This document shows positions 29,181 to 42,595 of a stretch of DNA of 46,025 bases, one piece after another. Position 1 is the first letter of the stretch; the number at the start of each line of letters is the position of its first letter. A model generated the notes under the pieces. That model did not search any database, was not told the origin of the DNA, and saw only the letters and a program-made list of their open reading frames with translations. Source of the DNA: Candidatus Velthaea versatilis (lineage in GTDB: Bacteria; Vulcanimicrobiota; Vulcanimicrobiia; Vulcanimicrobiales; Vulcanimicrobiaceae); contig PLAE01000236.1 in the NCBI GenBank assembly GCA_003134035.1, forward strand, positions 1 to 46,025, written 5' to 3'. The position numbers and the translations under genes were made by a program.

Positions 29181-31157
29181 ATGGCTGCCGTTCGCGCCTG
29201 CGTCGCAATCGCAATCATCTTTTTGCTGCGGCCGGGCGCGGCGCGCGCGGCCTCGCCGCCGGCGCTGGTCCCGGCCCCGCTGCACGTCGCGTGGACCCGC
29301 TGCCGAGGCGGCGGCTTCGCGCTCGACCGTCCGCTGCGGTTCGCCGCGGGCATCGATCCGGGGGGCCTCGCGCTCGTGCGCGAACGCTGGGGCGCGCTGG
29401 GCATCCCGGCGCCGGTGCGCGCGCCGCGCGCCGACGTCCAAAACGTGCGGCGTGCCGGCGCCGGCTATCGGCTCGATGTCGAGCCGGCCGCGGTTCGGAT
29501 CGCGGCCCCAAGCGGCGAAGCCGAATTCGATGCGCTCGCGACCCTCGCGCAGCTTCCGGTGCGCGACGGCGGGCGCTGGCGGCTGCCGTGCGCGGCGATT
29601 CGCGACGCGCCGGCGCTGCGCTGGCGCATCGTGTCCGACGATATCTCGCGCGGGCCGTTTCCCACGCTGCGCTATTTCAAGGAGCGGATCCGGACGCTGG
29701 CGGGCTTGAAGATCAACGGCTGGTCGCCGTATATGGAGCAGGTCTTTTTCGACCCCGCGCATCCGTATGTCGCTTTTCCGAACGCACTGCACGCCGGCGA
29801 GCTGCGCGAACTGGCGGACTACGCGCGGCGCTTCCACGTCGCACTGATCCCCGAGCAACAGACGTTCGCGCACATGCACGAGACGCTCAAGTTCCAGCGG
29901 CTCGGCGGCCTGGCGGAATTGCCGCACGGGTATCTGCTGTCGCCCAGCGACCCCGGGACGTACGCCTATCTCGAACCGCTGCTGCGCGCCGAACTCGCGG
30001 CCGCGGGGCCGGTGCCGTTCTTTCACATCGGTTCCGACGAGCCGCTGGACCTTGGCCGCGGGCGCACGCCGCGCACGGCGCAGGTGTTCGCCGCGCACGT
30101 CACGCGGCTGGCCGCCGTCGTCGCCCAGACCGGCGCGCGGCCGATGATTTGGGACGACGCCATTCAGGCCGATCCGACGATCTTGAGCTTGATTCCCAAG
30201 GGCACCGTCGTCGTTACCTTTCACTACGGCGCCGAAGCGTCGTTCGTGAAGTACATCGCGCCGGTCGCCGCGGCCGGCTTCGATCAAATGGTCTCGCCCG
30301 GCGCGAACGACTGGAACGAGGTCTACGCCGATCTCGACACGGCGTACGCCAACGCGGCCCAATTCGTGGCCGACGGCAAGGCGGCGCACGTGCTGGGAAT
30401 GTTCGACACCGTCTGGCACGACGACGGTGAATCGCTCTTCGAGGCGACGTGGGCGCCGGTCGCGTTCGCCGCGGCGAGTGCCTGGCAAACGGCGCCGGTC
30501 GACCGCGCGCGCTGGCATGCGACGTTCGCGCGGGCGTTTTTCGGTTCGGACGACGCGGGATTCGGCGCCGATCTCGACGCGCTCGCAGCGATGCGCGATG
30601 CCTTGCACACGAAGCCGGAAAGCGATCCGCCGAACTACTTGTTCTGGAGCGATCCGTTCGATCCGCGGCTGCAGGGACGGCTCGATCCCGGCGCGGTCGC
30701 GCTGATCCGCAATCGGGCCGAGGACGTGCTGACGCATTTGGCGCGCGCGGGGCCGCCGCTGCACCGCAACGCGGCCGAGGTCATGCGCCTTGGGGCGCTG
30801 CGCTACGACGCGCTGGGGCGGCGCTTCGAGATCGGAACCGAAGCGCGCGACTATTACGCCGACGCGCGCGCGCACGCCGCCGCGCACGCTGACGGGCCGG
30901 TGTATCGCGGGCTCAACGTCGTAAACTATCTGTGCTGGGAATTACGCGACGAAATGACGGCGATCGCACCGCTCTACGCCCGCGCGTGGAGTTACGAGAG
31001 CACGCCGCCGGGACTCGCGCGCGTCGCGGTGCGCTACCGGCTCGCCGCCGAGCAAGCGACGCTCGACGCCGACCGGTTCAACGCCGCCGCGCGCGAAGAC
31101 TATCTGCGCGACGGGTTGCTGCCGCCCTTCGAGCGCGTGCTGGACCGCGCGAATTGA
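29181..31157 (+). CDS. GH20-family beta-N-acetylhexosaminidase-like enzyme, secreted
   Basis: 658-residue secreted glycosidase. Signal peptide VRACVAIAIIFLLRPGAARAAS, then a GH20b-type N-terminal domain (ALVPAPLHVAWTRC...), a TIM barrel beginning FPTLRYFKERIRTLAGLKINGW, with the catalytic Asp-Glu pair Asp286-Glu287 in FHIGSDEPLD, and ARPMIWDDAI. GH20 enzymes release terminal GlcNAc/GalNAc by substrate-assisted catalysis in which the Asp positions the acetamide. The motif reads GSDE rather than the common GGDE, and the barrel is divergent, so the exact glycan is uncertain. The C-terminal 200 residues are helical. Its stop overlaps the start of the next gene in TTGA. Confidence 0.82.
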   Translation: MAAVRACVAIAIIFLLRPGAARAASPPALVPAPLHVAWTRCRGGGFALDRPLRFAAGIDPGGLALVRERWGALGIPAPVRAPRADVQNVRRAGAGYRLDVEPAAVRIAAPSGEAEFDALATLAQLPVRDGGRWRLPCAAIRDAPALRWRIVSDDISRGPFPTLRYFKERIRTLAGLKINGWSPYMEQVFFDPAHPYVAFPNALHAGELRELADYARRFHVALIPEQQTFAHMHETLKFQRLGGLAELPHGYLLSPSDPGTYAYLEPLLRAELAAAGPVPFFHIGSDEPLDLGRGRTPRTAQVFAAHVTRLAAVVAQTGARPMIWDDAIQADPTILSLIPKGTVVVTFHYGAEASFVKYIAPVAAAGFDQMVSPGANDWNEVYADLDTAYANAAQFVADGKAAHVLGMFDTVWHDDGESLFEATWAPVAFAAASAWQTAPVDRARWHATFARAFFGSDDAGFGADLDALAAMRDALHTKPESDPPNYLFWSDPFDPRLQGRLDPGAVALIRNRAEDVLTHLARAGPPLHRNAAEVMRLGALRYDALGRRFEIGTEARDYYADARAHAAAHADGPVYRGLNVVNYLCWELRDEMTAIAPLYARAWSYESTPPGLARVAVRYRLAAEQATLDADRFNAAAREDYLRDGLLPPFERVLDRAN

Positions 31158-33133
31158 CCGGAGTCGCGATCGTCGCGGCGTTTGCGGCGCTCGCGGCACT
31201 GATGATCGCGCGCAAACTGCCGGCGCTCTTGGCGGTGCCCGTCATGGCGCTCACGATCGGAGCGCTCGCGGGCGTCGGCCCAGCGGGTCTGGGCGATATC
31301 TTCGCCAAGGGCGCGGTGCTGCTCGCGCCGACGATCGCGACGCTGATCTTCGGCGCGCTGCTCAGCCGGGTCGTCCTGTCGACCGGCATCGCCGAAACCG
31401 TCGTGACCGTCGCGGCCGAATTCGGCGGCGACCGGCCGCTGGTGCTCGCGCTCGTCGTCTGCGTCGCGGTCGCCCTGCTGTTCACCTCGGTGACGGGTCT
31501 GGGTGCCATCATCATGATCGGCACGATCGTGCTGCCCGTGATGCTCACCGTCGGCGTGCCGCGCGCGACCGCCGCGACGCTTTTTCTCATGGCCTTCGGC
31601 TTGGGCTACATCTTCAATCTCGCGCAGTGGAAGTTCTACACCCAGATCTTCGGCGCCGATCAAAGCGTGTTTGGCGCGTACATCTACGTGCTGGCCGCGA
31701 TCGAAGTGCTGGCGATCGCGGCGTACGCGGCGGTCAGCGCGCGCACGAATCGCGATTACGCCACGTTCGCGTTGCCGGCGGCGGAACCCAAACGCCGCGT
31801 TCCGCTCATCGCGCTCGTGACGCCGGTGCTGCCGGTCGTGCTGTTCAAAGTCTTGAGCCTCGACGCGACGGTGGCGTTCGCGCTCGCCGCGCTTTTCGGC
31901 GTGCTCGTCACGCGTCCGCGCGATGCGGTGCAGACGCTCATGGCGGCTTGGATTCGCGGTCTGGAGGACGTCGGCCCGGCGGTCATCCTGATGCTCGGCA
32001 TCGGCATGCTGCTCTTCGCCGCGAAGCTGCCCGCCGTCGCCGCCGCCGTCACGCCGCTCATCGCCGCGGTCGCGCCGCGCACGCCGCTGGCGTACGTGAT
32101 CGTGTTCGGGCTGTTGAGTCCGCTCGCGCTCTATCGCGGACCGCTCAACGTGTACGGCGTCGGGATCGGCGTGTTCACCGTGCTCGCGACGATGCACGTG
32201 CTCGCGCCCGTCGCGCTCGTCGCCGCGGTGATGGCGGTCGTGCAAGTGCAGAACGTGTGCGATCCGACCAACACCCAAAATGTCTGGGTCGCGAACTTTA
32301 CCGGCGTCGGCGTCGACCGGATCACGCGGCTGACGCTGCCGTATCAAGTCGGCGTCGCAACGCTGGCGGTGATCGCGGTCGCGCTCTTCGGCGCCCAGCT
32401 CTTCGGCACACCGCTCTTCGGCCGCGCGCCGTTCGCGTTCGCGCATCCGGCCGCCGCCGCGGAGTTGGGCGGGTTGACGGCGCCCGCCGCGGCGGCCGCG
32501 ACGATCGCCGTCATGTCCGCCGACGCCGCCGCGGACGACGCCGCGAACGAAGTCCGGACGGCGATCGCGCACGGCTGGCGCGGCTACCGGACCGTCGCAA
32601 CGAAGACCGATCCGGCCGCCAGCGATTGCTTGGCGAAGCCGTATGCCGCGGTCGTCCGCGTGTCGGTCGAACGCGACGGCGGCGAACGCGACATCGGGAT
32701 CGAACTGCAGGACTGTGCGGGTTGGAGCGTCGATCAATGGCACGCGCAAGGCAACGACATCGCGCGGCTCGCACTCGACGTGCTGTTCCGGCTGCGCTTG
32801 TGGATGCACGACCGGCCGGCCCTCGCCGCCAACCTCTTCGGCCGCGGCTTGGCCTACGATCCGGCGACGGGGCCGACCTATTTCTACACGCTCTTCAAAC
32901 CCGCCGACGGCTATATGCGCGCGATCGTGCGGCCGGGCGGCCCGGCGTACACCGCCGGCTTACGGACCGGCGATGTGATCGATAAACTCGACGGCAAGTT
33001 TTGGTGGGAGTACGGCACCTACCAGACCGAGCTGCGCGCCTACGACGGTCAGCCGCACACCTACGACGTCGAACGCGGCGGAATCGGCGGACCGCCCGTG
33101 CACGTCGCACTGGGCGCTCCGTTTCGCGGCTGA
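31154..33133 (+). CDS. Multi-TM transporter fused to a PDZ-like domain
   Basis: 659-residue fusion. Residues 1 to about 430 are an ion-transporter-superfamily permease (GntP/DcuC/citrate type): about eleven helices, with GALLSRVVLSTGIAETVV, LLFTSVTGLGAIIMIGTIVL, GLGYIFNLAQWKFYTQIFG and QVQNVCDPTNTQNVWVANF. Then a linker domain with two Cys (SDCLAKPY, LQDCAGW) and a C-terminal PDZ-like domain from about residue 576 (MRAIVRPGGPAYTAGLRTGDVIDKLDG). The start is TTG 31154, overlapping the GH20 stop as TTGA; the frame upstream is only a shadow. The frame is uninterrupted, so the fusion is real in this sequence. Substrate unknown; location suggests a sugar or sugar acid released by the GH20 enzyme. 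Confidence 0.8.
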   Translation: MTGVAIVAAFAALAALMIARKLPALLAVPVMALTIGALAGVGPAGLGDIFAKGAVLLAPTIATLIFGALLSRVVLSTGIAETVVTVAAEFGGDRPLVLALVVCVAVALLFTSVTGLGAIIMIGTIVLPVMLTVGVPRATAATLFLMAFGLGYIFNLAQWKFYTQIFGADQSVFGAYIYVLAAIEVLAIAAYAAVSARTNRDYATFALPAAEPKRRVPLIALVTPVLPVVLFKVLSLDATVAFALAALFGVLVTRPRDAVQTLMAAWIRGLEDVGPAVILMLGIGMLLFAAKLPAVAAAVTPLIAAVAPRTPLAYVIVFGLLSPLALYRGPLNVYGVGIGVFTVLATMHVLAPVALVAAVMAVVQVQNVCDPTNTQNVWVANFTGVGVDRITRLTLPYQVGVATLAVIAVALFGAQLFGTPLFGRAPFAFAHPAAAAELGGLTAPAAAAATIAVMSADAAADDAANEVRTAIAHGWRGYRTVATKTDPAASDCLAKPYAAVVRVSVERDGGERDIGIELQDCAGWSVDQWHAQGNDIARLALDVLFRLRLWMHDRPALAANLFGRGLAYDPATGPTYFYTLFKPADGYMRAIVRPGGPAYTAGLRTGDVIDKLDGKFWWEYGTYQTELRAYDGQPHTYDVERGGIGGPPVHVALGAPFRG

Positions 33134-36180: not shown

Positions 36181-37569
36181 CTATCCGCCGCCGCTGGGCG
36201 CGAGCAGATCGAAGGCACCTTGCGCAGCGACGTGCTCGCCGGCGCGGAGGCCCGTGCCGACCAACGTGCGCTGATCGTCGCCGTCCAGGATCGTAACTTT
36301 GCGCGGGACGAACCGCGCCGGACTTCCGGCCGGGCGTTCCGCGACGAAGACGATCGACGAACCGTTTTCGGGATCTTCGACGATCGCACTCGTCGGAATC
36401 ACAATACCGTAGCGTTCGCCGACGTCGATCGTCGCTGCGACCGCATCACCCGAAACGGCACCCGGCGGCGCGCCCGTAACGGTAACGATGGTGGTCTGCG
36501 TCGACGGATCGAGGATGGGCACCACGGCGCGCACGCGTCCGCGGCCGCCGCGCCCGCTGTCGGCCGCCGTCATCGTCACCGCATCGCCGGGCCGCACGCG
36601 GCGCGCGTCGGCGCCCAGAACCGTTAAGCTGACGTCGCTGCTCTGCGCGGGTCCGACGACGATTGCGGCCTGCGTCGGGTCGACGGCTTCACCAGGATGT
36701 TTGAGGATCGCGGTCACGACGCCGTCCGCGGCAGCCGCGAGCGTGGCGACCGCGAGCGTTCGCTGCGCGGCCGCGTAGTGTGCCCGGGCCGCCGCGGCCT
36801 CTGCCGCGGCCACGTTGATTTGGGCGCGTGCGGCTTGCACGTCACTCTGCCCTTGGGTTACGTCGGCGCGCGCTTGCGCGAGGGCCTCGCCGATGCTCGA
36901 TCCGGCGCTCGCTAATTTCGCCCGATCGGCAGCGGCCTGCGCGCGGTCGAAGAGGAGTTCCGCCCGCGCGGCCTCGACGTCTTTGAGCGCGGTGACGCCG
37001 CCCGCATAGAGTCGGGTTGCGCGGTCGGCGGCAAGCCCGTCGACGCTCACTTTGGCCGCGGACTGACGGACCGCGGCGAGCGCCGCTTCGCGGTCGCTTT
37101 GGGCACTGGCCGTGCCGCTTTCGAGTGACCGCAGCCGGCCGCGCGCCGCGGCAAGGCGCGCTTGCGCAGCTGCCAACGCGCGGCTTGCGACCATGCCGCC
37201 GCCGTAGCTCGCCGCCGCGGCGAGCGCGTCGTTGCGCGCCTGCGCGACATCCAGCGCGATGCCGGTCGTATCGAGTTCGGCCAGCGGTTGCCCGGCCCGC
37301 ACCGCTGCGCCGACGCGAACGTCGACCCGCGCGACGATGCCGGTAGTAGCAAAGGCGAGTTTTGCTTCACCGCCGGACGGAACGCCGACCCGGCCTTGCG
37401 CGCGGACGCGCAGGACGTAGCGGGCGAACACCGCCGGCGCGACGGGAACGGCCGGCGCAGCGCGAACGGCGGCCGGAACCGTTCCTGCATTGCGCTGCCG
37501 CAGGACGACCAGCGTGCCGGCGACAAGAATCGCGATCGCGCAGATGCCGACGATCGCGCGGCGGTTCAT
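36181..37569 (-). CDS. HlyD-family periplasmic adaptor of an RND pump
   Basis: 462-residue membrane-fusion protein. N-terminal membrane anchor (AIVGICAIAILVAGTLVVLRQR), a lipoyl/barrel-sandwich half-motif FATTGIVARVDVRVGAAVRAGQPLAELDT, a long Ala-rich alpha-helical hairpin (about residues 110-260) that docks on TolC, a second barrel half (ADGVVTAILKHPGEAVD), beta-barrel and membrane-proximal domains (GIVIPTSAIVED). Its ATG overlaps the stop of the upstream RND-TolC gene in ATGA, so adaptor and pump are coupled. It connects the inner-membrane pump with the outer-membrane channel. Confidence 0.93.
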   Translation of the reverse strand: MNRRAIVGICAIAILVAGTLVVLRQRNAGTVPAAVRAAPAVPVAPAVFARYVLRVRAQGRVGVPSGGEAKLAFATTGIVARVDVRVGAAVRAGQPLAELDTTGIALDVAQARNDALAAAASYGGGMVASRALAAAQARLAAARGRLRSLESGTASAQSDREAALAAVRQSAAKVSVDGLAADRATRLYAGGVTALKDVEAARAELLFDRAQAAADRAKLASAGSSIGEALAQARADVTQGQSDVQAARAQINVAAAEAAAARAHYAAAQRTLAVATLAAAADGVVTAILKHPGEAVDPTQAAIVVGPAQSSDVSLTVLGADARRVRPGDAVTMTAADSGRGGRGRVRAVVPILDPSTQTTIVTVTGAPPGAVSGDAVAATIDVGERYGIVIPTSAIVEDPENGSSIVFVAERPAGSPARFVPRKVTILDGDDQRTLVGTGLRAGEHVAAQGAFDLLAPSGGG

Positions 37570-40500
37570 GAATCAACCTCCAGCCCCAATACCGTTTGCG
37601 CTTTGAGCCGATCGTATTGGGCCGAGAGCGCATCGACGACGGCCTGCACGTACGTCGCACGCGATGTGCTTAGATCAAGACTCGTCGACGCGCCGTTTTC
37701 GTAACCGAGCGTCGCCGCGTCGAGTTCGGCGCGCGCGGCGGCGAGCGCCGTAAGCACGGCGCGTTCGGCTTCGATCGACGCGGCGGCCGTCCGCGCCGCG
37801 GACGCGACTTCGAGCGCGACCGCGCGGCTAACGCCGTCGCGGTGCGCGCGCGCGGCATCCAGCAGCGCCGCTTGGGCGTGCACCCGGGCCGCAACGCTGC
37901 CGCCGAGGGGGACCGACACCAGCGCGGACAGCGTTGGACCCTTTACGGGAAAGCCGGAATCGATGCCGCGCGCGTAGCCCGCGCCGAGCGTCACCGCCGG
38001 GAACGCGCCGCCGCGCGCGGCAGCGACGCCGGCAGCGGAGGCGCGAACGTTCGAATCCGCCGAACGCACCTCGGCGCGCCGCGCAAGCGCCAAGTCAACC
38101 GCGACGTCCGGGGACGGAACCGGAGCTGGGGCCGGCACCGCCGCGGCGGCCGTCGCCGCGAAGGCCGCCATCGAACGGTCGACCTCATGAGCCAGCGCAT
38201 CGGTGGCCGAACCGTCGTCGGCGTTGGCGGTCGCGAGATCGGCCTGGGCGCGAGCGAGGGCGACTTGGGCCCGCACGACGTCCAGCCGCGGTGCCTCCCC
38301 AGCGGCGTAACGCGCCTGCGCGGCGCCCAGTTGCCGCTGCGCGGAGCCGATCGCGTCGGCGCGCGCGCCCCGAACGGCGCGCGCTTTGAGCGCGCCGTAA
38401 TACAGAGTGATTGCTTTGATGCGCTCGGTGCGTTCGGCGGCGAGTTCGTCGCTTTGGGCCGCGCGAACGGCAGCGGCGGCCGCGCCGATCAGCGGCGCCA
38501 ATGCGGCGAGATCGCCCAGCGCGACTTGCCCCCCATACTGCGTCGATCGCTGAGCGATCGCGCCGCCGGGAGCGCCCTGGGGCGCTTCGACATAACTGCC
38601 GACCAAGGCAAAGCCGTTGGTCGAACGCGCTTGCGCAAGCCCGGCGCGCGCGCCGTCAAGTGCGGCGCGCGCGCTACGAACGTCCGGCGATGCGACGACC
38701 GCGAGCTGCTGCGCCGCTGCCAAATCGACTTGCGCGAACCGCAACGTGGTGAGGGCCCCCGGCGGAACCTCTTGCGCGCTCGCGGTGCGCGGCGCGCCCG
38801 ACAGAATCGCGAGCAGCAGCGCCACGGTTCCCGCGCGCAGCGCCCGGCGGCGCGCGAAAGCGCCCGAGAACGTCGCATACAGCACCGGGATGAGGACCAG
38901 CGTAAAAATCGTCGCGGTCGACAATCCGCCGATCACGGCGACGGCGAGTGGACGTTCCATCTCGGCCCCCGCACCCAAACCTAGCGCCAGCGGAAACAAG
39001 CCCCCGATCGCGGCCAGCGTCGTCATCACGATCGGCCGCACGCGCGTCGAACCCGCCGTCAGCAACGCCCGCGTCACGTCGTCCCCCGCCGCCCGCCGGC
39101 GATTCGCAACATCGATGAGCAGAATCCCGTTCTTCACGACGATGCCGACGAGTAAGAGCAACCCCATGAACGACGACACGTTGAACGGGGTCCGCGTGAC
39201 GAAAAGCGCCGCGGCGACCCCGACGAGCGCGAGCGGAATGGCGCATAAGATGACGAGCGGCAGACGAAACGAGCCGAAGGTCGCGAGCATCACGCCGAAC
39301 ACCAGCGCGACCGCGATGCCGATGACGGCGCCGAACTCGCGGAAGGACGCTTGCTGCGTCTCGTACGCGCCGCCGATCGCCGCTGCGTATCCCGGCGGAA
39401 GCCCCGACCCGGCGAGCGCTGTTTTTACGCCGCCGATCACGTCCGACAGCGACGCATCCCTGATGTTTGCCGTCACCCGGTCGATGAGCCGGCCGTTCTC
39501 CTCGTTGATGTCGCTGGCGCGCGGCGGCTCGTCGATCCGCGCAAAAGCGCCCAGCGGCGCCGGACCGTTCTTGGTGAAGAGCGTCGAACCGCCGATCCCG
39601 CTCGCGCCGAATGCGCCGGCAACGCGCACGATCACGGGAATCGTCGCACTCTCGCCCGGGATCTGCGCGGCGGCGGTCCCTTGCGTGCGCGCGCCAACCG
39701 CGTCGCCCAAATCGGCGGCGCTGATGCCGAGCGCGTCGAGTCGCGCGCTTTGCGGGGCGATGCGCACCGCGGGATCGTCGTAAACGATCCCGTCGAAGCT
39801 GTCGACGACACCGCGCACCTTCGCGATGGCATCGGTCGTCTTGTCGGCAACGTCGAGCAGTTTGGCTTGATCCGGTCCGCTGATCGTCACCTCGATGGGC
39901 TGCGGCGTCCCGGACAGATCGTTGATTTGGTCCTCCAAGAGCTGATGGAAGTCGAGATTCGCGGCCGGCACGGCAGCGCCGAGCGCATTGCGCAAGCGAT
40001 CGGAGATCGCGTCGTATCCGGCGCGCGCGCCCGTGCGCAAAGCGACGCGCAGCGTCCCCGTGTTCGGCTGGGTCGGCGAAAAACCGTTGGTATCGACCCC
40101 GCTGAGCCGGCCGACGGACAGCACGTCCGGGTCGCCCAAGACAAGCCGATCCAGTTTGCCTGCCGCAGCATCGCTGTCGGCCAGCGTGGCGCCGGCCGGC
40201 AGCGTGTATTTGATCTCGAATTCGCCTTCATCGAGCTTGGGCAAAAAGTCGTTCGGCAATTGGACCAACAAGACGAACGTTACGACGAGCACGACACCGC
40301 CGGCGGCGTACACCGCGCGCCGATGCCCCAGCGCCCAGCGCAGAATCGGTTCGTAGAACTCACGCAAGCGATCCGCGCGCTCCGCCGGCGGCGGCGCGCC
40401 CTTCAGGAACGCATGCGCGAGGATCGGGGCGACACCAACCGCCAGGCCGAGTGAGACGAGCAGTGACACCGCCAAGGTGAAAGCGAGGGCGCGAAAAAAA

Positions 40501-41888
40501 AAGCCCGCCACGCCCGAAAGTAAGCCCAACGGAATGAAAACAACGACGGTCGTCAAAGTCGAGGCTGCCATCGCGCCGGCGATGTGACCGACCGCCGTCG
40601 CGATCGCGGCCGCGTGCGATTCGTTGGGATACTCCGCGCGTCGACGCGCGATCGCTTCGATCACGACGATTGCGTCATCGATGATGAGTCCAACGGCAAT
40701 CGCCAATCCGCCCACGCTCATGAGGTTGAGTGATTGCCCCGACTGTTCGAGGACGAGGATGGCGATCGCTAACGCGAGCGGGATGATCGCGGCGGCCACC
40801 AGCGTCATCCGAACGCTGCGCAAGAACAGATAGATGACCACGACGGCTAGCACGGCGCCCAGGAATATCGCGTCTCGCAACGATCGCTGCGAATCGACGA
40901 TGAGGCGCGTTTGATCCCAATACTTGACGATCTCGACATCGGCGGGCAAGGCACCGCGAACCGCCGCTAGCCGGGCCTCGAAGGCGTTCGCGAGACTCAC
41001 GACGTCGGCCCCGGCGAGCGGGAAAGCGTTGAGCACCACGGCGTGCACGCCGTTCACGGCCGCCGCAGCGACCGCGGGGCCGACCCCGAGCCGGACGGTG
41101 CCGAGCATGCCCAGCGGGACCGTACCGCCGCCTTTGAGCGGAATTCCGATCGCCCCAAGAGTGCGCACATCGTGGATCGACGAGTCGATGAGCAGAACGT
41201 AACGCTGATGGTAGCGGACAGCCGTGCCGGCGGATTGCACGGTGCTCGCCGTGCCGATCGCCGCGGCCGCGTCGGCCGCGGACAACCCGACGGCGGCGAG
41301 CGCCGCCGGCGCGAGTTCGACGCGGTATTCAATCGGCGGGCCGCCGACGACCGACGTGCGCCCCAGGCCCGGCGTGCCGGCGAACGCGGGCACGATGCGC
41401 GTCGTCACGAAGCTGTTCAGCGCCGCTTGCGACAGGACGCGCGAGGTTAGCCCGTACGAAAGAGCCGGCTCGGCGTTCGGGTTGACGATCACCGCCTCGA
41501 TGCCCTTGGCCTCCGGCAGGGTCGGCGCAATCGCTGAGATGACGCTCCGAACGTATTGCAGGTCCTCGCGCGGATCGCTGTGGGTATCGAAATCGATGAG
41601 GATCTCGGCCGACCCTTGGGTGGACGTCGCGCGGACACGGGTCGCCGCCGGCAGCGTTCCGAACGCCGTTTCCAATGGCCGCGTAACGGCGATCCGAACC
41701 CGATCCGGCGGCAAATCTCCGGCGTCCGCGACGACGTCGATGCGCGCGAAGGACATCGCCGGGAAGATACTCTGCGGTGCGATCAGATAGGAACGCACAC
41801 CGAGCGCCGCCAGCACGAGCACGACGAAAAGAATGACCTTGGCGCGACCGAGGACGAGTTCTGCTATGTTCACGAACACCGCTACCAT
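37566..41888 (-). CDS. RND efflux permease fused to a TolC-like outer-membrane factor
   Basis: 1440-residue single chain. Residues 1 to about 1015 are a complete HAE1-type RND pump: TM1 near VILFVVLVLAALGV, porter and docking domains, TM4 relay Asp404-Asp405 in GLIIDDAIVVIE (AcrB D407/D408), TM10 Lys919 in GIVVKNGILLID (AcrB K940), and TM12 IFTLVLIPVLYATFSG. Next comes basic ARRRALRAG and a signal-like helix TVALLLAILSGAPRTASA|Q (about 1021-1038, AxA site). Residues 1039-1440 are a normal-length outer-membrane factor with both OEP repeats (QARYAAGEAPRLDVVRAQ; YENGASTSLDLSTSRATY). Start ATG 41888, 29 bp from the divergent response regulator. GTG 38825 could be an internal start. No stop or frameshift separates the parts. 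Confidence 0.9.
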   Translation of the reverse strand: MVAVFVNIAELVLGRAKVILFVVLVLAALGVRSYLIAPQSIFPAMSFARIDVVADAGDLPPDRVRIAVTRPLETAFGTLPAATRVRATSTQGSAEILIDFDTHSDPREDLQYVRSVISAIAPTLPEAKGIEAVIVNPNAEPALSYGLTSRVLSQAALNSFVTTRIVPAFAGTPGLGRTSVVGGPPIEYRVELAPAALAAVGLSAADAAAAIGTASTVQSAGTAVRYHQRYVLLIDSSIHDVRTLGAIGIPLKGGGTVPLGMLGTVRLGVGPAVAAAAVNGVHAVVLNAFPLAGADVVSLANAFEARLAAVRGALPADVEIVKYWDQTRLIVDSQRSLRDAIFLGAVLAVVVIYLFLRSVRMTLVAAAIIPLALAIAILVLEQSGQSLNLMSVGGLAIAVGLIIDDAIVVIEAIARRRAEYPNESHAAAIATAVGHIAGAMAASTLTTVVVFIPLGLLSGVAGFFFRALAFTLAVSLLVSLGLAVGVAPILAHAFLKGAPPPAERADRLREFYEPILRWALGHRRAVYAAGGVVLVVTFVLLVQLPNDFLPKLDEGEFEIKYTLPAGATLADSDAAAGKLDRLVLGDPDVLSVGRLSGVDTNGFSPTQPNTGTLRVALRTGARAGYDAISDRLRNALGAAVPAANLDFHQLLEDQINDLSGTPQPIEVTISGPDQAKLLDVADKTTDAIAKVRGVVDSFDGIVYDDPAVRIAPQSARLDALGISAADLGDAVGARTQGTAAAQIPGESATIPVIVRVAGAFGASGIGGSTLFTKNGPAPLGAFARIDEPPRASDINEENGRLIDRVTANIRDASLSDVIGGVKTALAGSGLPPGYAAAIGGAYETQQASFREFGAVIGIAVALVFGVMLATFGSFRLPLVILCAIPLALVGVAAALFVTRTPFNVSSFMGLLLLVGIVVKNGILLIDVANRRRAAGDDVTRALLTAGSTRVRPIVMTTLAAIGGLFPLALGLGAGAEMERPLAVAVIGGLSTATIFTLVLIPVLYATFSGAFARRRALRAGTVALLLAILSGAPRTASAQEVPPGALTTLRFAQVDLAAAQQLAVVASPDVRSARAALDGARAGLAQARSTNGFALVGSYVEAPQGAPGGAIAQRSTQYGGQVALGDLAALAPLIGAAAAAVRAAQSDELAAERTERIKAITLYYGALKARAVRGARADAIGSAQRQLGAAQARYAAGEAPRLDVVRAQVALARAQADLATANADDGSATDALAHEVDRSMAAFAATAAAAVPAPAPVPSPDVAVDLALARRAEVRSADSNVRASAAGVAAARGGAFPAVTLGAGYARGIDSGFPVKGPTLSALVSVPLGGSVAARVHAQAALLDAARAHRDGVSRAVALEVASAARTAAASIEAERAVLTALAAARAELDAATLGYENGASTSLDLSTSRATYVQAVVDALSAQYDRLKAQTVLGLEVDS

Positions 41889-41917
41889 GCCACCCGAACA
41901 TGACGTGACGATGAACG

Positions 41918-42595
41918 ATGCGCATCCTCTTCGTCGATGACGACGAGCGCCTGGCGGGCTTGGTACGGCGTGGTTTAGGCGAGTCTGGGCACGTGGTCGA
42001 CTGCGCGCTGGGCGGGAGTGCCGGCCTGATCTTCGCGACGGAGCGCGCTTACGACGCCATCGTCCTCGACGTGATGATGCCGGAACTCGACGGCTTTGCC
42101 CTCGTCCGTCGGCTTCGCGGCGAAGGGAACAACACACCCATCCTGTTTTTAACGGCCCGCGATGCACCCGAGGACACGATCGCGGGCCTCAACGCGGGCG
42201 CGGATGACTACCTGCGCAAACCGTTCGTGTTCGGCGAGCTCGAAGCACGCCTGCGCTCGATCGCGCGCCGGACGGCGCCGTTGAACAACCAGCTGCTGAC
42301 GGTCGCCGATCTCACCTTCGACGTGCAGACGCGGCGCGCCAAGCGCGGCGCGCGCGAGATCGAGCTCACCGCGCGCGAAGGGGCTTTTCTCGAATATTTT
42401 ATGCGGCACGCGGGCCGGGTCATGACGCGCGCGATGATCGAAGATACGCTGTGGACGATCGACAATGCGAATACCTCGAACATCGTCGACGTCTACGTGC
42501 GCCGGCTGCGCGCCAAGCTCGAAGCTGCCGGCGAAGTCCGGTTGCTGCACACGTTGCGGGGCGCCGGTTACCGGCTCGAGGCGCCGCGCACGTGA
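41918..42595 (+). CDS. OmpR-family response regulator
   Basis: 225-residue two-component regulator. Receiver domain with DDD (7-9), phospho-acceptor Asp51 in IVLDVMMPELDG, LTARDAPED and Lys101 in LRKPF; a C-terminal OmpR winged helix with ELTAREGAFLEYFMRHAG and TSNIVDVYVRRLRAKLEA. The kinase starts 8 nt downstream. Divergent by 29 bp from the efflux operon, which it most likely regulates. Confidence 0.97.
   Translation: MRILFVDDDERLAGLVRRGLGESGHVVDCALGGSAGLIFATERAYDAIVLDVMMPELDGFALVRRLRGEGNNTPILFLTARDAPEDTIAGLNAGADDYLRKPFVFGELEARLRSIARRTAPLNNQLLTVADLTFDVQTRRAKRGAREIELTAREGAFLEYFMRHAGRVMTRAMIEDTLWTIDNANTSNIVDVYVRRLRAKLEAAGEVRLLHTLRGAGYRLEAPRT

Follow-up and report, generated by a model that had tools for sequence, protein, structure and literature searches.

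To our knowledge, few secondary transporters carry accessory periplasmic domains, and the coupling of extracellular hydrolysis to import is mostly known from TonB-dependent and binding-protein systems. The nearest published parallel that we found to the protein described here is VcGluQM, a TAXI-TRAP transporter, whose periplasmic claw (DUF3394) is predicted to hold the binding protein (PMC11574862). ArsB, a permease of the ion transporter (IT) superfamily, is described as having ten membrane segments plus two hairpins, with both termini in the periplasm and a cytoplasmic linker (Arg199-Val221) between the two halves (PMC13381914). Among the open papers of PubMed Central, we found no published PDZ-bearing permease, and no counterpart from Eremiobacterota. 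Here we describe a protein of this kind encoded in a 46,025-nucleotide stretch of DNA (contig PLAE01000236.1, Candidatus Velthaea versatilis; "the window" refers to this whole stretch), from a genome (G000, contig C254 in our set) whose nearest named relatives are metagenome-assembled genomes (MAGs) of Candidatus Eremiobacterota. In a single forward-strand gene (31154-33133), an IT-superfamily permease continues through a linker into a TolB-N-like domain and a PDZ domain, the last two termed the tail. We tentatively propose that this 659-amino acid protein serves an exported glycosidase encoded immediately upstream.

Architecture and distribution of the fused protein

The frame comprises 659 open codons and begins with a TTG start codon that overlaps the stop codon of the upstream gene (TTGA). 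The whole fused protein was modeled with AlphaFold2 from a 34-row family alignment, in which three rows are permease only and one row ends at a contig end (mean pLDDT 86.7), and the tail alone (residues 436-659) was modeled from 35 rows (mean pLDDT 95.9). According to the model and a structure search, residues 1-416 (31154-32401) adopt the inverted-repeat fold of the IT superfamily with two hairpins, and the charge profile places a lysine- and arginine-rich loop (residues ∼197-215) between the two halves. The best structural match of this part is ArsB (10tp; Z 26.5, rmsd 3.9 Å, 398 residues aligned, on re-aligned chains), followed by NaCT, NaS1, and VcINDY (Z ∼23), and by others that include the TRAP transporter SiaQM (Z 22). 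No Pfam or NCBIfam permease family scored above its cut-off for the window protein; GntP_permease and CitMHS are weak matches, each in two of the 34 family rows.

The permease is followed by a linker of low model confidence (residues 417-447; 32402-32494), with pLDDT below 50 at residues 420-424 and 428-437. The subsequent domain (residues ∼448-566; 32495-32851) matches the N-terminal domain of TolB (2hqs; Z 9.7, rmsd 3.0 Å, 106 residues aligned), a middling score that is evidence of fold likeness only. LpoB, PelC, and GNA1162 are also among its Foldseek matches, and we take the fold relatives of the TolB-N-like/PDZ tail to be periplasmic or lipoprotein. Two cysteines of this domain, Cys492 (32627-32629) and Cys521 (32714-32716), are both present in 30 of 30 rows, and they probably form one disulfide. 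The first-pass annotation of this DNA had assigned them to the linker, which is incorrect, as they sit within the folded TolB-N-like domain.

The last 90 residues (570-659; 32861-33130) have a PDZ fold similar to that of CtpA (Z 10.8, rmsd 2.6 Å, 87 residues aligned) and CtpB (Z 10.7). The Pfam PDZ_6 match in the window protein lies below its gathering score (23.9 bits vs. 27; E 3.5e-5), and a PDZ domain is recognized in 30 of the 34 family rows; a chance sequence match was ruled out by the AlphaFold2 model together with the structure search. That annotation had also described a permease and a PDZ domain in one protein and had named structure prediction of the tail as a check; the prediction returned the PDZ fold, and both folds are predicted on the one frame. 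No protease domain was found on the window protein, and matches to HtrA- and Ctp-type proteins are confined to the PDZ stretches. Mean pairwise identity among relatives is 0.67 for the PDZ domain, about the same as for the permease (0.65), and 0.42 for the TolB-N-like domain. The PDZ domain also contains two near-invariant, family-specific stretches, WWxYGT and RA(Y)DGxPH, and by the measure of its sequence is under strong constraint.

The distribution of the two parts was examined by a whole-protein search of 148 genomes, of which 114 match; the tally within the same family (n = 90) leaves out the window's own genome. Both parts are matched across the junction in 82 of these 90 genomes: 71 have them in one full frame (including G053, in two contiguous pieces but one 652-codon frame), eight have a match that spans the junction but is cut, and three have a match that spans the junction with a frame that breaks inside the permease. 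Four further genomes have matches that end at contig ends and are uninformative on this point, two are without any match, and two (G005 and G039, genus g6) have the tail with no permease at the locus. The same tail is thus found on other permeases, for which a search had been recommended in the earlier annotation. Outside the family, all four genomes of the sister family f2 encode the permease and the tail side by side as two genes, in different frames, and count as Rosetta-stone evidence for the proposal made below. A further 21 genomes of the phylum, more distantly related, match in the permease part only, and none of the 14 genomes of family f3 matches the whole-protein query. In one f2 locus (L070), a possible GTG start codon of the tail gene overlaps the permease stop (CTG TGA) and is followed by a hydrophobic leader. 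In G005 and G039, the upstream glycosidase gene is directly followed by a gene for the tail, which there has a hydrophobic leader of its own; elsewhere, beside a Hydantoinase_A gene, lies a diverged copy of the permease (L084, L085). The tail tree puts the separate tails of g6 at an unresolved basal split of the same-family rows, a position compatible with a pre-fusion state as well as with a later split.

Several loci (L061/L086, L068/L087, L100, and L101) have frame breaks inside the permease part, which are assembly errors or decaying genes. Two loci titled Rhodospirillales (L056 and L061) carry the fused gene among Eremiobacterota rows, and these labels are probably wrong, on the basis of the tail tree for L056 and of the match and gene order for L061.

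Gene neighborhood, cellular location, and occurrence of the tail on proteases

The gene upstream of the fused gene (29181-31157, forward strand) belongs to the GH20 family and is β-N-acetylhexosaminidase-like. Its product has a hydrophobic leader at the N terminus and contains the motif HIGSDE; it matches Pfam Glyco_hydro_20 (26.9 bits vs. a cut-off of 22.3), and also matches Glyco_hydro_20b above cut-off; the motif, in the form HxGxDE, is present in 49 of 53 GH20 relatives. Among named same-family loci, all 31 that extend upstream of the match have a GH20 gene there on the same strand; another four begin within three bases of the match and are uninformative for GH20. The gap between GH20 and the permease match is less than 70 bases in 26 of the 31, and 0.5-4.5 kb in L036, L038, L039, L040, and L058. 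The tie to the GH20 gene that had been suggested from translational coupling is therefore borne out by gene order, and also by the adjacency of GH20 and tail in the two genomes that have no permease at the locus. These observations support a functional link of the tail to GH20.

Downstream, a Hydantoinase_A (Pfam) gene is present in 30 of 35 named same-family loci, and the other five have at most 4.7 kb of downstream sequence. A gene of the M20 dipeptidase type often lies between, giving the conserved order of GH20, permease-tail, (M20), and Hydantoinase_A. In the window's own genome, the M20 gene (C254:47377-48729) and the Hydantoinase_A gene (C254:48768-50822) lie ∼14 kb downstream of the tail, past the end of the window. 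Promoter and terminator scans found nothing, or matches at background level.

An IT-superfamily permease is also found directly beside Hydantoinase_A in L073 (5368-8768), L062, L080, L091, and L093-L096. This pair recurs in other members of the phylum, as well as in a single MAG labeled Acidobacteria, and it looks like a transport-and-use unit.

The tail most likely lies on the periplasmic side of the membrane. The permease loop that matches the cytoplasmic linker of ArsB (residues 197-215) is the one rich in lysine and arginine, and the separate tails (f2, G005, and G039) open with hydrophobic leaders. A periplasmic placement is indicated by these two features together with the termini of ArsB, the periplasmic fold relatives, and the invariant cysteines. 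A TonB-dependent receptor plug encoded just past the end of the window fits a cell with two membranes.

The tail is not restricted to permeases. A tail-profile search identified proteins with a C-terminal TolB-N-like plus PDZ cassette in five sampled genomes (L123-L127), with cassette alignments of E 5.5e-14 to 1.1e-8 across the five proteins; when 149 genomes of the phylum were searched, the best protease-cassette match reached E 1.3e-12 for its genome. Three of the five, scanned by Pfam, are Trypsin_2 proteases (L123 1937-3742, L124 2365-3942, and L125 1723-3075), and L126 and L127 are alike by profile. All five align at the second cysteine, and L125 and L127 also at the first. Since the cassette is present on both a permease and proteases, it is thus a portable extracytoplasmic unit.

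Elsewhere in the window, a 1533-amino acid frame on the reverse strand (37566-42167) carries both an RND efflux permease of AcrB type (residues 103-1100) and a TolC-type outer-membrane efflux protein with two OEP stretches (the best at residues 1356-1525), an unusual joining of inner- and outer-membrane components.

Proposed role and alternative explanations

We propose that the fused gene encodes an inner-membrane IT-superfamily importer with ten membrane helices, two hairpins, and both ends outside, whose C terminus would bear a periplasmic module made up of the TolB-N-like and PDZ domains and probably containing one disulfide. In the periplasm, this module would be the partner of the GH20 glycosidase, which is encoded directly upstream and would be exported. 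GH20 would release a product outside the cytoplasm from a substrate that contains amino sugars, this release would be coupled to uptake of the product by the importer, and the cytoplasmic Hydantoinase_A-type and M20 enzymes of the cluster would then use the imported product. The conserved PDZ surface, and not the GH20 C terminus, may provide the link between the permease and GH20 or its bound substrate; that the module physically joins them is what we infer, with weak support. Taken as a whole, we hold this coupling of glycosidase to importer tentatively, at close to an even chance though short of it. The readings considered here are partly compatible, and the probabilities attached to them do not sum to one.

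Four points weigh against this proposal. The contacts of the module with GH20, and of GH20 with the permease, are putative; a cut linker would leave nothing tethered; and the hydrophobic leaders that precede the separate tails are without a positively charged n-region. Finally, other members of the phylum have the permease together with Hydantoinase_A but neither GH20 nor the tail, and so the permease does not need GH20; the two genes are neighbors at 13 of the 20 permease-only loci fetched. Permease and Hydantoinase_A thus form the broader unit, with GH20 and the tail seen only in this bacterial order.

The strongest alternative, which we consider possible but somewhat less probable than the coupling proposal, is that the gene encodes a polyprotein: signal peptidase I would cut the linker downstream of the last membrane helix, and the single gene would give rise to a permease plus a TolB-N/PDZ protein free in the periplasm, as in the relatives with two proteins. 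The linker is disordered and contains a candidate signal-peptidase motif, either AFA (residues 428-430; 32435-32443) or AAA (residues 434-436). In 18 of 21 relatives less than 80% identical, an AxA ends at a constant position, 14-15 residues past residue 416, whereas the best window in 2000 linker shuffles reached 12, in a test that ignores the kinship of the rows and thereby overstates the difference. The position flanked by the two alanines is variable (A, L, Y, F, N, Q, R, or S) and proline is the commonest residue at -4 (11 of 21), a pattern that resembles the site recognized by signal peptidase I. In the separate tails, the leaders likewise end in alanine (ALIA/QF, SALA/FP) ahead of a PG(L)xAP stretch as in the fused form, and the AxA of the fused linkers falls where these leaders end. 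At the level of sequence, the fixed AxA suggests that the tail may be released by signal peptidase. Against this, when its position is disregarded, AxA occurs in the linker about as often as in shuffles (20 of 21 observed vs. 19.0 expected), and the candidate site is ∼14 residues past the helix, which is longer than usual for signal peptidase. The AxA idea, the motif variants, and the alignment at the motif were all post hoc, having been chosen after the linkers had been inspected. Because of this, and because the rows are related and the linker is alanine-rich, the cleavage site is a lead and not a result.

The two proposals can be combined: a portable two-cysteine TolB-N/PDZ cassette, shared with trypsin-like proteases, may have been welded to an importer whose last helix would serve as its signal sequence, making a self-processing product of the operon. 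Signal peptidase would free the module into the periplasm, where it would serve the exported GH20 enzyme and link the degradation of glycan or peptidoglycan with import and with processing of the Hydantoinase_A type. In this complete form we think the scenario doubtful.

It is unlikely that the tail gates the permease or serves it as a docking domain, in the manner of the VcGluQM claw and with no part for GH20. The claw is a precedent on a TRAP permease of IT fold (PMC11574862), and the tail is fused to the permease in most genomes. However, G005 and G039 keep the tail with GH20 in loci that have no permease, and no gene for a substrate-binding protein was recognized among the recurrent neighbors scanned.

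Less likely still is a quality-control or sensing cassette of protease origin that would bind exposed C termini or peptide signals in the periplasm and regulate import. The Trypsin_2 proteins carry the same cassette, including the second cysteine and the PDZ domain, and the PDZ relatives are CtpA, CtpB, and HtrA; yet WWxYGT and RAxDGxPH are absent from the protease versions read, which suggests another ligand.

The first-pass annotation proposed that the PDZ groove binds the free C terminus of GH20, an idea that the coupling of the two genes would allow and that we now regard as very improbable. In a set of 53 GH20 loci, in which some genomes are counted twice under different names, the protein ends in R (22), P (22), Q (3), S (3), H (1), K (1), or W (1). 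There is no shared ending, and the endings are R or P in 44 of the 53 loci, whereas the PDZ domain is conserved. That two genes were joined by a frameshift or an assembly error, for which the few relatives with frame breaks would be the only precedent, is effectively ruled out by the recurrence of one frame in the 71 same-family genomes.

Because fused, split, and permease-less forms coexist in one bacterial order, coupling, tethering, and possible cleavage are testable by comparison. Such work would give the first functional lead for a family of IT-superfamily permeases that travels with Hydantoinase_A proteins.

Comparison with known systems

The likeness to VcGluQM lies in the general plan, in that both are IT-fold permeases with an extra periplasmic globular domain near the C terminus. 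In contrast, the claw of VcGluQM is mostly β and is placed between the last two membrane helices. DUF3394 has no Pfam match in the window protein and none in 148 genomes of the phylum (controls matched in two of 14), and membership in the DUF3394/TRAP family was rejected on this basis.

Each domain of the tail also has relatives in other settings. The TolB N-terminal domain has a similar fold over residues ∼448-554, but the window protein is without the β-propeller of TolB and has two invariant cysteines. The PDZ fold is common to CtpA, CtpB, and HtrA (Z up to 10.8), although the invariant residues differ and the window protein carries no protease domain. The C-terminal cassette as a whole is shared with Trypsin_2 proteases of the same bacteria, where it follows a protease domain instead of a permease.

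The permease shares its fold over residues 1-416 with ArsB and with other IT permeases (VcINDY/DASS, the SiaQM TRAP M-subunit, and YdaH), and the cytoplasmic linker between its halves is placed as in ArsB. Identity to these permeases is only 14%, and the window protein carries a C-terminal two-domain tail. It differs from them further in that the gene for this type of permease pairs with a Hydantoinase_A gene.

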